Positions 36,124-41,789 of a DNA stretch of 64,000 bases are shown in pieces (the first letter of the stretch is position 1; each line of letters begins with the position of its first letter). The notes under the pieces are model-generated. The model was not told where the DNA came from. It saw nothing but the letters and a program-made list of their open reading frames with translations, and did not search any database. The DNA is from Anaerobacillus isosaccharinicus (lineage in GTDB: Bacteria; Bacillota; Bacilli; Bacillales; Anaerobacillaceae). Location: contig NZ_CP063356.1 in NCBI RefSeq assembly GCF_001866075.3, positions 3,400,164 to 3,464,163 of the forward strand. Direction: 5' to 3'. The translations under genes and the position numbers were made by a program.

Positions 36124-36899
36124 TGCTAGATTTATTAGAATTTGTTCCAGCTTTTTTGCTAATTGTTACTAGAGTTTCAGCTTTTTTTATTACTTTACCA
36201 CTATTTTCCCATCGTACTATTCCAGCAAGACATAAGATCGGTTTTGCTTTTCTTCTTTCATTTTTGATGTTTTTTACGGTTGATCCACCAATCATTGAAA
36301 TTGACGGTGTTTATTTTCTGTTAATTATGAAAGAAGTTATTGTAGGATTAACAGTTGGATTAATCGCAATGGTTATGATGTACGCCATTCAAGTTGCTGG
36401 TGGCTTTATTGATATTCCAATGGGTTTTATGATTGCTAACGTTATTGATCCACAAACCGGGACGCAAAGTCCTTTAACAGGTGGATATTTATATACGTTC
36501 GCGCTTTTATTCTTATTTGCGATTGACGCCCATCATCTATTATTAGATGGAATTTATTACAGTTACCAATTTATTCCTCTTGAACAAATTTTCATTCCGT
36601 TTAGTAATGAAAATATCCTACTACATTTTGTGAAGACTTTTACGCTAATGTTTTTTATTGCCTTTCAAATGGCAATGCCTGTTGTTGGGTGTTTATTTTT
36701 AGTTGATGTTGCGTTAGGGATGATAGGGAGAGCTGTTCCCCAGGTAAGTGTATTTGTAATCGGTTTTCCACTTAAAATTTTTGTTGGTTTTGTTATTCTA
36801 ATACTAACTATGCCTGCTTTTTTTATGGTGACAAAATATTTAGTACAACAAATGGTTTTAGCTATGAGAACGTTAATGCAGCTTTATGGGGGGATGTAG
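36123..36899 (+). CDS. fliR: Flagellar export gate protein FliR
   Basis: The 258-residue FliR is a multi-spanning membrane protein of the export gate with motifs RVSAFFITLPLFSHRTIPAR, QVAGGFIDIPMGFMIANVID and IGRAVPQVSVFVIGFPLKIF. It is flanked by fliQ and flhB with a 1-base overlap and a 1-base gap. Confidence 0.97.
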   Translation: MLDLLEFVPAFLLIVTRVSAFFITLPLFSHRTIPARHKIGFAFLLSFLMFFTVDPPIIEIDGVYFLLIMKEVIVGLTVGLIAMVMMYAIQVAGGFIDIPMGFMIANVIDPQTGTQSPLTGGYLYTFALLFLFAIDAHHLLLDGIYYSYQFIPLEQIFIPFSNENILLHFVKTFTLMFFIAFQMAMPVVGCLFLVDVALGMIGRAVPQVSVFVIGFPLKIFVGFVILILTMPAFFMVTKYLVQQMVLAMRTLMQLYGGM

Positions 36900-36900
36900 G

Positions 36901-37983
36901 ATGGCTTTTTTACCTCTTGATCTCCAATTTTTCGCTGGGGAAAAAACTGAACAAGCAACACCTAAAAAAAAGCAAGAAACTAGAAAAAAAGGTCAAGTCG
37001 CTAAAAGTGCTGATATTAATACAGCTATTATTCTTCTATTAGTTTTTATTTTTTTATGGTTAATAGGAAGCTATACTGGTAAAAGTATTATTAAATTTTT
37101 CCAGTTTATGTTTCAAGAGTTTTTACTATTTCAATTGACCGATGAGAATGTTAATAGTTTATTTTTAGAAATTACTACACAAGCCGTCATAATTGTAGCA
37201 CCAATTATGCTAGTGGCGTTTCTTGCTGCTATTCTTAGTAACTATTTACAAGTAGGGTTTCTCTTTGCACCAGAAGCAATTCAAATGAAACTAAGTAAAT
37301 TAAATCCAATTCAAGGATTTAAAAATATATACTCAGTTACGGCAATAGTAGAATTTTTAAAATCTATTTTAAAAATATGTCTTGTCGGTTTAGTTACCTT
37401 TACAATTTTATGGTTAAATGTCGATCAAATCCTGATGTTATCCTTAATTCCGATTTCAGATGCTTTTAGTTTCGTCGGGAGTTTAACTGTAACAATGGGA
37501 ATAGCCGTTTCTATCTTATTAATTTTTTTGGCAGTTTTAGATTATTTGTATCAGAGGTATGATCATGCAAAGAAAATTAAAATGTCAAAGCAGGATATAA
37601 AAGATGAGTATAAGAAAACAGAAGGTGACCCTCTAATCAAATCTAAAATTAAAGAAAAACAACGGCAAATGGCCATGCAGAGAATGATGCAAGAAGTTCC
37701 TAAAGCTGATGTTGTTATTACAAACCCAACTCATTATGCGGTTGCCTTAAAGTACGATGGTAATAAAATGGATGCTCCAGTTGTTATTGCAAAAGGTGTT
37801 GATTTTATTGCTCAAAAAATTAAGGGAATTGCAAAACATAATGAGATTATTACCGTTGAAAATCGACCGTTAGCCCGTGCTTTATACGATCAAGCAGAAA
37901 TTGGTGACGAAGTACCAGAAGATTTGTTTAAAGCGGTGGCCGAGGTTTTAGCATATGTTTACCGAATTAAAAACAAAGTTTAA
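36901..37983 (+). CDS. flhB: Flagellar export switch protein FlhB
   Basis: FlhB sets the export substrate class. From ATG 36901 (GGGGG upstream) it has 360 residues: the N-terminal LDLQFFAGEKTEQATPKKKQ, four transmembrane helices (about 35-230), a linker and a C-terminal domain with the autocleavage site Asn275-Pro276-Thr-His (VVITNPTHYAVALKYD). The end EDLFKAVAEVLAYVYRIKNK is normal. flhA normally follows closely; here the junction is disrupted. Confidence 0.97.
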   Translation: MAFLPLDLQFFAGEKTEQATPKKKQETRKKGQVAKSADINTAIILLLVFIFLWLIGSYTGKSIIKFFQFMFQEFLLFQLTDENVNSLFLEITTQAVIIVAPIMLVAFLAAILSNYLQVGFLFAPEAIQMKLSKLNPIQGFKNIYSVTAIVEFLKSILKICLVGLVTFTILWLNVDQILMLSLIPISDAFSFVGSLTVTMGIAVSILLIFLAVLDYLYQRYDHAKKIKMSKQDIKDEYKKTEGDPLIKSKIKEKQRQMAMQRMMQEVPKADVVITNPTHYAVALKYDGNKMDAPVVIAKGVDFIAQKIKGIAKHNEIITVENRPLARALYDQAEIGDEVPEDLFKAVAEVLAYVYRIKNKV

Positions 37984-37985
37984 CT

Positions 37986-38112
37986 ACTAGAGCGAATTTC
38001 ATAATTAAAAAAATGAGCCATATGAAGCTATATGTAGTTGCGAGCGAAGTTAAGCAACTACATATAGTATCTTAATGGCGATAAAATGGAATTATGAAGT
38101 TCATTAACTAGT
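37986..38112. repeat. 127-bp imperfect palindrome between flhB and flhA
   Basis: The flhB-flhA gap folds on itself. The outer arms are ACTAG...ATTTCATAATT (37986-38006) and AATTATGAA.TTC...CTAGT (38090-38112). The inner arms are a perfect 14-bp pair CTATATGTAGTTGC (38028-38041) and GCAACTACATATAG (38054-38067) with a 12-base loop. There is no T-run. It resembles a small palindromic mobile element, or a fold that controls flhA expression. The flhA SD (AAGGAG) follows it. Confidence 0.75.
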
Positions 38113-38132: not shown

Positions 38133-38575
38133 ATGTCAGTAAAAGATTTAAGTGTACTATTAGGAGTAATATTAAAGTTATCTAATTTATCAAACCATAT
38201 TTCCAGGAATGTTGGATGTTCTGATTATTGGAAATGAAAGTATTATTTCAAGCAAAAAATAATGTGTATACTTACTAAAAATCACATTTAAAAAAGAGCG
38301 ATCTTCCCCTATTGCATAAACATTATTTCGTTTAAAACGTTTGATGAGATCAATACTATATTAGGTGAAGCTAATGTTATCGATAGCTTGGGTCACGTTG
38401 TATTTCCTGTAATGCCTCGTCGGATTTGTTGTATTCTTAATCAAGACTATCATTCAATTTGTTGATCATCCGAAAGGGGCCTGAACGTGTTCATGATGAA
38501 AAAAGATTGTACCCCGTTGTCTTCATGCAATGCCAGGTAATAACGGAAATGAGTTGGTTTGATGCTGAGCGAAAT
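38133..38575 (+). pseudogene. flhA: flhA 5' end, broken and mosaic
   Basis: ATG 38133 with AAGGAGAG upstream is the natural flhA start (MSVKDLSVLLGVIL). Homology to the main flhA copy is lost after 38175, and a stop follows about 20 codons later. Exact flhA blocks reappear in order: 38203-38230 (28 bases, equal to 39822-39849), 38321-38335, 38416-38442 (27 bases, equal to 40056-40082), 38449-38465, 38471-38481 and 38525-38540. They are separated by unrelated or indel-shifted bases. The last blocks overlap the minus-strand transposase frame. It cannot encode FlhA as written. Confidence 0.75.
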
Positions 38576-39773
38576 GGAAAGTTCCACTTGTTTACGGAAT
38601 TTTACCATCTTTTTCTGTAGCTCCGACCCTTGTGGAACAGGACCATAGAAGAAAGGACTTTCTTCAAAAGAGAAACCAAATTGCTTTTCATCATCGTTGC
38701 TTCTAGGGGCAGGAGAAACATTTCTCTTCATCTGCCTGAAACCAAGAAGTATTTGTTTCCTTATCGAACCCATCCCAAAGTAGTGGATGACCAGCTTCAC
38801 ATTCGGGCTTCCTTCTGTGGAACACGTCTCCGGGATAATCGTATTTTTCTTAAATTCCGTGACGACAGCTACATCGTGTTTGAGAAATGACTTACAAAAC
38901 AGCCTGATCTTCCTCACTGAAATAGCCTAAATCAGCTACAGATAGTCTACTTTTCAGATCACCGATTTGCTTAAGTTTTTCTACCAGCGGAAGAAGAACA
39001 TCGACATCGTGAGTATCTGGAGGAAGAACAATAGACAAGAGAACAACAGGTCCCGAGGGGGAGGGGCAAACGATCGAATGTTTTCGATAGCCGATAAAAA
39101 AATTTATTCTGATTGGCCTTATTCCTTTGAACACCGACTTTGGCATCAGGATCTGAATACGTTTTCTCGCATTCACAAATCTCTTTGTTTTCACAAGAAC
39201 ACCGTTTCTTTTTATAGCCGTTCACATGAGCATAGACGGGTCTAGAATCAATTCCTTAAGTTGGTTCTAAAAATCATCCAGTTTTAGAGCTTGACCAATC
39301 AGATTAAATAAGATTTTATAAAAGTAAAGGGTCACGGTATTACGAAAATGAGTCAAGCTCGAATGAACAGGAACATCCTTTATGGCCATTAGGAGTGCCG
39401 ATGAAGTTACGCATCCTGATTCTAGATCCTTCAGCTGTCTACACAGCTCTCTAAAATGACGTGATCTCAGGACGTGTAAAGTACAAATAATGCATACGAA
39501 AATACGTTCTAGATCAATAGGTGGTCGACCACCATCTTTATATAATGGTTTAATTTTTTCCAAGACAATGGAATCATCAACATGATCAATATAATCTATC
39601 AATTCCACATCAAAACCGAGTGTGTTATAGTAGTGGTAGGGAAGCAGTTCTAGCTGCATATCCATGAAATGCACTGAAAAAAAAGTATTTTTGGTTGTTT
39701 GGTACTCCCATTTTACCATTTATCGCTGAGGGTGTATTTTTGTTTTTCATAAAATTTATTTTTTGAACACGCT
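38176..39773. mobile_element. Degenerate insertion sequence inside flhA
   Basis: About 1.6 kb separates the two parts of flhA. The interval contains a minus-strand DDE-type transposase in pieces. The 19-base flhA segment CTATTAGGAGTAATATTAA occurs on both sides (38157-38175 and 39774-39792), as expected if an element entered flhA and duplicated or kept the target. Exact element ends cannot be set because the left part is mixed with flhA-derived blocks, and no clean terminal inverted repeats were found. Confidence 0.65.
38450..39719 (-). pseudogene. Broken DDE transposase
   Basis: Three pieces read in order on the minus strand. The first (39719-39267, 150 residues) has MVKWEYQTTKNTFFSVHFMD, KDGGRPPIDLERIF and VPVHSSLTHFRNTV. 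The second (39225 to about 38892) has ICECEKTYSDPDAKVGVQRN, then after a frame change IGYRKHSIVCPSPSGPV and SVADLGYFSEED. The third (38917-38450) starts in yet another frame with HDVAVVTEFKKNTIIPETCS. A stop at 39267 and frame changes near 39100 and 38905 break it. The layout (GRPP near the N-terminus, DPDA, GYR.H, AD.GYFSEE) is that of IS4/IS5/IS1182-type transposases; the exact family is not assigned. Confidence 0.75.
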
Positions 39774-39800
39774 CTATTAGGAGTAATATTAATAGTTATC

Positions 39801-41789
39801 ATGCTTATCATCCCACTACCGCCAGGAATGTTGGATGTTCTGATTATTGTTAATATTTCTCTTGCTCTCCTAATCATATTAGTTGCCATGAATACAAAAG
39901 AACCGTTGCAATTTTCGATCTTCCCTACACTATTGCTATTAATTACATTATTTCGTTTAGGGTTAAACGTATCGACCACTAGATCAATACTCGGTAAAGG
40001 TGAAGCCGGGAATGTTATCGATACATTTGGGTCATTCGTTGTAGGTGGTAATGCCCTCGTCGGATTTGTTGTATTCTTAATCTTAATTATCATTCAATTT
40101 GTTGTCATAACGAAAGGGGCCGAACGTGTTTCTGAGGTTGGTGCCCGTTTTACATTAGATGCAATGCCAGGTAAGCAAATGAGTATTGATGCTGATTTAA
40201 ATGCAGGAATGATTTCCGATATTGAAGCTAAAGAACGTCGTTTGAAAATTGAACGTGAAGCAGACTTTTATGGTGCGATGGACGGAGCGAGTAAATTCGT
40301 TAAAGGGGATGCCATTGCTGGTATCATCATCGTTATTATTAATCTTATTTTTGGCTTAATTATCGGAATGATGCAACAGGGCTTAGATATTGCGTCTGCT
40401 GCCTCAAAATATACATTATTAACGGTAGGAGATGGACTAGTCAGTCAAATTCCAGCCCTATTAATCTCAACAGCTACTGGTATCGTAGTAACTCGTGCAG
40501 CTTCTGAAGGGAATTTGGGAGATGATATTACAAAACAGCTATTGGCCTACCCAAAAATGCTCTACATTACAGGGGGGACAATTGGATTACTAGGTATTGT
40601 TACACCAATTAGTCTAATGCTAACAATGCCTATGGCTGCTTTTTTAATCTTAGGTGGTTACTTATTACTTAAAAATGAAGATAAGAGATTATCGGAAGTT
40701 GATGAGGCGGCAGCGAGTGCTGAGGAAAGTCCAGATGATATGAAATCTCCAGAGAGTGTTGTAAACCTTCTTCAAGTTGATCCAATTGAATTTGAATTTG
40801 GTTATGGACTAATCCCTTTGGCGGATGCGAACCAGGGTGGAGATTTATTAGACCGTGTTGTTATGATTAGACGTCAACTTGCCATTGAATTAGGATTAAT
40901 CGTTCCCGTTATTCGAATCCGAGATAATATTCAACTCCAACCAAACGAATACTCGATTAAAATAAAGGGGAATGAGGTAACAAAAGGTGAATTATTACTT
41001 GATCACTTTATGGCCATGAGTCCAGGAGTAGATGATGAGAGCATCATCGGAATTGAAACCGTGGAACCGGCGTTTGGAATGCCTGCTCTTTGGATTAGTG
41101 AGGACATGAAGGAGCAAGCTGAATTATCAGGTTATACTGTTGTTGATCCACCTTCTGTTGTTTCGACACATTTGACGGAAGTCATTAAGCGTCATGCCCA
41201 TGAATTACTAGGACGTCAAGAAACAAAACAATTAATCGATCATTTAAAAGAAGCTTATCCTACTTTAGTAGATGATGTTACGCCAAACCCACTTTCAATT
41301 GGAGAAGTTCAAAAAGTATTAGCAAATTTACTGAAAGAAAAAGTATCTATTCGTAATTTGCCAACGATTTTTGAAACACTAGCCGACTATGGTCAAATGA
41401 CAAAAGATACTGATTTGATTACAGAATATGTGAGACAAGCTCTTTCTAGACAAATTACAAAACAATATGCAAATACTAGTGAGCCTCTTTATGTTGTTAC
41501 AATGAGTGGTTCGGTAGAGAAAATAGTTGCTGATGGAGTTCAACAAACTGAACATGGTAATTTCCTAGCATTAGATCCAAATAATTCACAAGGAATTATT
41601 GATGCGGTTCTTTATGAGGTAGAACGAATGAGTGAGATGGGACAAATGCCAATTTTACTTTGTTCTCCAGCTGTTCGTATGTATGTACGACATCTTCTTG
41701 AACGGTATATACCTCATGTCCCAGTTTTGTCGTATAATGAACTTGAGCCTACGATTGAGGTTCAAAGTGTAGGGGTGGTGAATGTTTAG
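39801..41789 (+). CDS. flhA: Flagellar export gate protein FlhA, missing its first codons
   Basis: FlhA is the ring-forming export gate subunit that binds FliJ and chaperone-substrate complexes. The frame resumes at 39774 with LLGVILIVI, but the first ATG is 39801, giving 662 residues and omitting 17 (the natural start is at 38133). The membrane domain has IIPLPPGMLDVLIIVNISLA, FRLGLNVSTTRSIL and SEVGARFTLDAMPGKQMSID. The cytoplasmic domain (about 330-662) is complete to LSYNELEPTIEVQSVGVVNV. GGAG at 39780-39783 is a chance SD 17 bases before the ATG. The ORF is otherwise intact and overlaps flhF by one base. Confidence 0.9.
   Translation: MLIIPLPPGMLDVLIIVNISLALLIILVAMNTKEPLQFSIFPTLLLLITLFRLGLNVSTTRSILGKGEAGNVIDTFGSFVVGGNALVGFVVFLILIIIQFVVITKGAERVSEVGARFTLDAMPGKQMSIDADLNAGMISDIEAKERRLKIEREADFYGAMDGASKFVKGDAIAGIIIVIINLIFGLIIGMMQQGLDIASAASKYTLLTVGDGLVSQIPALLISTATGIVVTRAASEGNLGDDITKQLLAYPKMLYITGGTIGLLGIVTPISLMLTMPMAAFLILGGYLLLKNEDKRLSEVDEAAASAEESPDDMKSPESVVNLLQVDPIEFEFGYGLIPLADANQGGDLLDRVVMIRRQLAIELGLIVPVIRIRDNIQLQPNEYSIKIKGNEVTKGELLLDHFMAMSPGVDDESIIGIETVEPAFGMPALWISEDMKEQAELSGYTVVDPPSVVSTHLTEVIKRHAHELLGRQETKQLIDHLKEAYPTLVDDVTPNPLSIGEVQKVLANLLKEKVSIRNLPTIFETLADYGQMTKDTDLITEYVRQALSRQITKQYANTSEPLYVVTMSGSVEKIVADGVQQTEHGNFLALDPNNSQGIIDAVLYEVERMSEMGQMPILLCSPAVRMYVRHLLERYIPHVPVLSYNELEPTIEVQSVGVVNV

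Follow-up and report, generated by a model that had tools for sequence, protein, structure and literature searches.

The flagellar export gene flhA of Anaerobacillus isosaccharinicus is split in the assembled sequence, about 30 bp from its start, by roughly 1.6 kb of sequence in which stretches of an insertion sequence (IS) alternate with exact pieces of flhA itself, and the question raised by this locus is whether such a patchwork exists in a chromosome or arose as the sequence was put together. Two explanations had been offered by a sequence-only reading: a mosaic generated by repeated short exchanges between an IS copy and flhA, or a hybrid consensus into which reads from IS-free and IS-containing chromosomes had been merged. 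Positions given below are those of the window, the whole 64,000 nt stretch of contig NZ_CP063356.1 that was analysed.

The flhB-flhA locus and its insertion site

The interrupted gene and its surroundings comprise the following features.

36886..37983, plus strand: flhB, an intact frame (ORF of 365 aa) matching TIGR00328 at 445.1 bits against a cutoff of 349.25
38133..38162, plus strand: the true 5' end of flhA, from the ATG to the target site TATTA; joined with 39780 onward, it aligns to the start of flhA in all six congeners
38163..38575, no strand assigned: the IS/flhA mosaic at its densest, as shown by the parse, control scores and counts in 200-nt bins
38576..39774, minus strand: the remaining IS body, with a transposase in a broken frame and sparse in-register flhA pieces, as shown by the parse and control scores
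39775..39779, plus strand: the right-hand TATTA of the target duplication (4 bp, or 5 bp counting a shared T), adjoining the clean IS end
39780..41789, plus strand: the remainder of flhA, source of the flhA pieces at 38157-39684; an intact frame (ORF of 662 aa from 39801) matching TIGR01398 at 911.6 bits against a cutoff of 772.1

The two edges of the insert are dissimilar. On the right the boundary is clean, the IS stopping at 39774 (or 39775), followed by TATTA again and then by flhA onward to 41789. On the left, the TATTA at 38158-38162 is followed by further flhA sequence up to 38175 and then by alternation of IS and flhA, with no clean switch to the IS; approximately the first 12 nt of the element are absent, the match to it beginning at IS base 13, and the left junction is not visible, flhA occupying its place. 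All six congeners have a continuous flhA here, with no interruption at the site or in the ~520 nt that follow. When aligned to the joined flanks, at 81-84% identity, five of these genomes require no gaps and the sixth has two compensating gaps of 3 nt.

A separate observation concerns the gap between flhB and flhA, where positions 37984-38112 hold a dispersed repeat of ~118 nt with a long nested hairpin fold (z of -6.3 as DNA). Within the same genome, 15 of its 42 matches, the gap copy included, are at least 110 nt long at 75% identity or more (40 of 68 candidates being scored), and many more are found in congeners among the matches listed, foremost in the genomes G003 and G004. No match to Rfam was found up to an E value of 0.1, and the repeat looks like a miniature inverted-repeat element.

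Sister copies of the insertion sequence

The host genome, one contig of 5,227,144 bases, proved on searching to carry the IS at seven other sites (L018-L024), and these copies are mutually identical over 1632 bp. All seven share the ends GAG...CTC, with termini forming an inverted repeat in 14 of 16 bases (counted by eye), and each lies between target duplications that measure 4 bp (5 bp with a shared T included). The targets are AT-rich: TATTA and TATAA twice each, and TTAAA, TTATA and TAAAC once each. The two copies flanked by TATTA, L018 and L023, both have the right flank TATTAG, as at the flhA site. The element, with a length of 1631-1632 bp (~1.63 kb), had no match in a search of a plasmid collection and was found in none of six other genomes of the genus, two of which are only 62% and 80% complete.

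L018, the sister copy that was translated, encodes an intact transposase of 454 aa, matching PF05598 at residues 62-133 (35.7 bits, cutoff 23.1) and PF01609 at residues 198-296 (37.5 bits, cutoff 23). In this protein a DDE domain therefore comes after a DUF772 domain, an arrangement that marks the IS1182 family. Its top NCBIfam match is likewise the model for this family (NF033551), yet at 88 bits this falls below the curated cutoff of 270, and the element is accordingly described only as 'IS1182-like'.

The interrupting element had previously been read as a degenerate IS, a description that is wrong given seven other sites with identical copies and a transposase that is intact where read. Because these sister copies are identical, the family is not old enough for a single member to have decayed; it is young rather than degenerate, with corruption confined to the copy in flhA. 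Seven identical copies at AT-rich targets also suggest a recent burst of transposition.

Two sources of sequence within the insert

The 1608 bases from 38162 to 39769 can be parsed, at the stricter of two switch costs, as 1355 bases of IS and 253 of flhA in 56 blocks, leaving 2 mismatches and small gaps. Cheaper switches in the same parse give 92 blocks and no mismatches, many of these blocks being 1-3 nt, a size at which they are meaningless singly. Apart from the 2 mismatches and small gaps that remain, the composition is that of a hybrid consensus, with bases from one or the other allele in register with both.

The six exact flhA blocks listed in the sequence-only reading proved real when checked letter by letter: 28 nt at 38203-38230, 15 nt at 38320-38334, 27 nt at 38415-38441, 17 nt at 38448-38464, 11 nt at 38471-38481 and 16 nt at 38525-38540. 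The 27-nt block extends for at least one base more, and the list omitted a further exact block of 19 nt at 38157-38175. The drift in offset between 1617 and 1641 also holds, in the two-source parse, for the longer flhA pieces up to 38540. The bases between the blocks had been described as unrelated; however, comparison with the sister copies and the parse identify them as IS sequence. The patchwork is real but does not end near 38600, as had been supposed, since flhA pieces continue to about 39684, where they match flhA at 41330-41342.

The choice of flhA as the second source was compared with controls in several ways, and its pieces stand far above what chance would give. In a free-position parse of 38157-39780, which includes a few flanking flhA bases and allows copying from the IS or a second sequence, the IS alone scored 1177, addition of the (shorter) flhB side 1187 and addition of flhA 1303, against at most 1212 for 60 segments of equal length from the window. 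With flanks excluded and both sources kept in register, flhA scored 309.5 over 38179-38575, the left part, where none of 150 controls exceeded 242 and none of ten off-register flhA frames exceeded 238.5. Over the right part (38576-39769) it reached 1120.5, the best of 150 controls giving 1111.5 and the best of 20 off-register frames 1108.5. Even with free jumps to any position, the longer flhA pieces are ordered from 39774 to 41342, and therefore flhA is laid along nearly the whole IS; the long IS pieces are ordered from IS base 17 to 1626, with only short ones falling out of order, three under the stricter penalty and a larger number under the looser one.

The pieces are dense over the first 400 nt and sparse afterwards, with 72, 118, 13, 10, 0, 9, 16 and 15 flhA bases in successive 200-nt bins from 38162. 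In the genome search, identity to the true IS was 74% for 38174-38600, most of which is also 71% identical to flhA, and 96% for 38600-39773. Aligned to the sister copies, 38576-39775 has 1172 matches, 11 mismatches, 17 inserted and 22 deleted bases (95.9% identity). Mixing was found at the left edge of the insert only. At the right edge, 39400-39775 contains no flhB-side pieces, the score of 339.5 being equalled or bettered by 167 of 200 controls (mean 339.4); the flhA signal in this interval is weak alone, yet better than that of 196 of the 200 controls. Mixing at both edges would be expected of a simple mixture of two alleles, but perhaps not of every consensus method, and so is not strictly defining.

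Origin of the patchwork

What the sequences show is two sources, their register and extent, identical sister copies and an uninterrupted site in relatives. From them we infer a mixture of cells, a real insertion in flhA and a software step, and the patchwork is very probably a consensus artefact formed from IS-containing and IS-free reads. Of the two explanations originally offered, it is the hybrid consensus that agrees with which pieces are present, their order and how far they extend, and the natural mosaic is very unlikely. That an IS copy and flhA exchanged sequence in the chromosome through many short gene-conversion or template-switch events is hard to credit: the blocks are indeed exact and ordered, and the mixing is one-sided, but some 24 to 55 switches would be needed, depending on the penalty, all in register with both sequences over 1.6 kb, while the seven sister copies are without any change. 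Nor was the homology that a donor and recipient would share detected between IS and flhA at E <= 0.001; a search of the genome with the intact IS at this threshold matched the eight IS copies and nothing in flhA proper. It is just as implausible that the patchwork is real DNA, made by a replication or repair process that came in on the flhB side and took a fresh IS and flhA by turns as template, without losing its position in either for 1.6 kb.

An assembler might instead have misplaced an IS copy from elsewhere into an flhA that is uninterrupted in all cells, a possibility to which the hidden left junction, with flhA in its place, and the right flank TATTAG common to L018, L023 and this site both lend something. 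It is nevertheless improbable, as the end of the IS meets flhA exactly at TATTA, just as a genuine insertion would, and two of the seven sister copies use this target; a mis-join would have to strike the exact end of the IS with ~6 shared bases beyond it. The broken transposase frame could suggest an old IS decaying beside a decaying partial duplication of flhA, but the sister copies show no differences from one another, and the frames of flhB and flhA on either side are intact; this candidate was rejected because the changes match in-register flhA, which they fit better than controls, and its probability is negligible.

The hybrid consensus could have come about as follows. A young IS1182-like element of 1631-1632 bp would have entered flhA ~30 bp from its start in some cells of the culture that was sequenced. 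IS-free reads coming from flhB into flhA may then have been forced along the layout of the IS without opening a 1.6-kb gap, such that read correction or consensus calling would choose base by base between the two alleles. The outcome would be IS sequence interspersed with in-register flhA pieces, crowded at the left edge and thinning out to the right, although the hybrid consensus does not by itself explain why mixing entered from the left only.

A toy consensus, in which each column was decided by a vote among noisy reads of both alleles (~10% read error, 13 runs), agrees with this only qualitatively, giving the kind of pattern but not its strength. No flhA pieces appeared at the three settings where IS-containing reads made up at least half of the total. 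In the 10 runs with a majority of IS-free reads, the parse assigned some bases to flhA every time, mostly within the first 400 nt in eight of them, which is only a hint that IS-free reads were in excess in the data. flhA outscored the best of nine controls in only six of these ten runs (6 of 13 overall), as it did in the real sequence (1444 against 1359). By one common measure, identity to the IS in the real sequence is 69.5% over the first 430 nt and 94.7% over the remainder, against 82.5-98.4% and 95.1-99.8%, respectively, in the ten runs; across all 13, the first 430 nt ranged from 82.5 to 100%, the observed degree of mixing never being attained. Across five scoring schemes, a simple pairwise alignment of IS and flhA likewise mostly failed to predict the block borders: 3 to 7 of 26 came within 2 nt, and each of the ten borders lying between IS bases 191 and 333 was missed by 16 to 42 nt. 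In the single scheme with a control, 7 of the 26 borders were predicted, against a mean of 1.85 and maximum of 6 in 20 shuffles, and the mean deviation of 15.4 lay within the range of the shuffles (mean 32.4, minimum 10.5).

The underlying biology is likely to be an ordinary event, a recent IS insertion in flhA that was polymorphic in the sequenced culture, hinting that some of its cells had lost flhA. The sequence-only reading had taken either of its explanations to imply an flhA polymorphism; we infer one also, as a property of the culture that was sequenced. The switching of motility by an insertion, suggested in that reading, gains no support from these sequences. Taken at face value, flhA would be annotated as a pseudogene and the IS as a degenerate relic, both of which are probably misleading calls, and a genome that looks finished can thus contain sequence probably present in no molecule. 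The two-source parse could be used to seek other loci at which alleles have been averaged, and these would document how IS elements have moved in sequenced cultures.

In cultured bacteria, flagellar genes can be abolished by IS insertions. The locus described here is similar, in that a flagellar export gene has apparently been struck by a recent insertion, and differs in that the insertion is deduced from a corrupted consensus.

Errors of assembly and polishing at heterogeneous loci have been described in bacterial long-read assemblies, with the fim switch and a prophage among the examples given (PMC9980784). The likeness to those examples lies in two structural alternatives within one culture and wrong bases confined to the locus, whereas in flhA it is an IS insertion that would form the alternative, and the bases are assignable to the two alleles.
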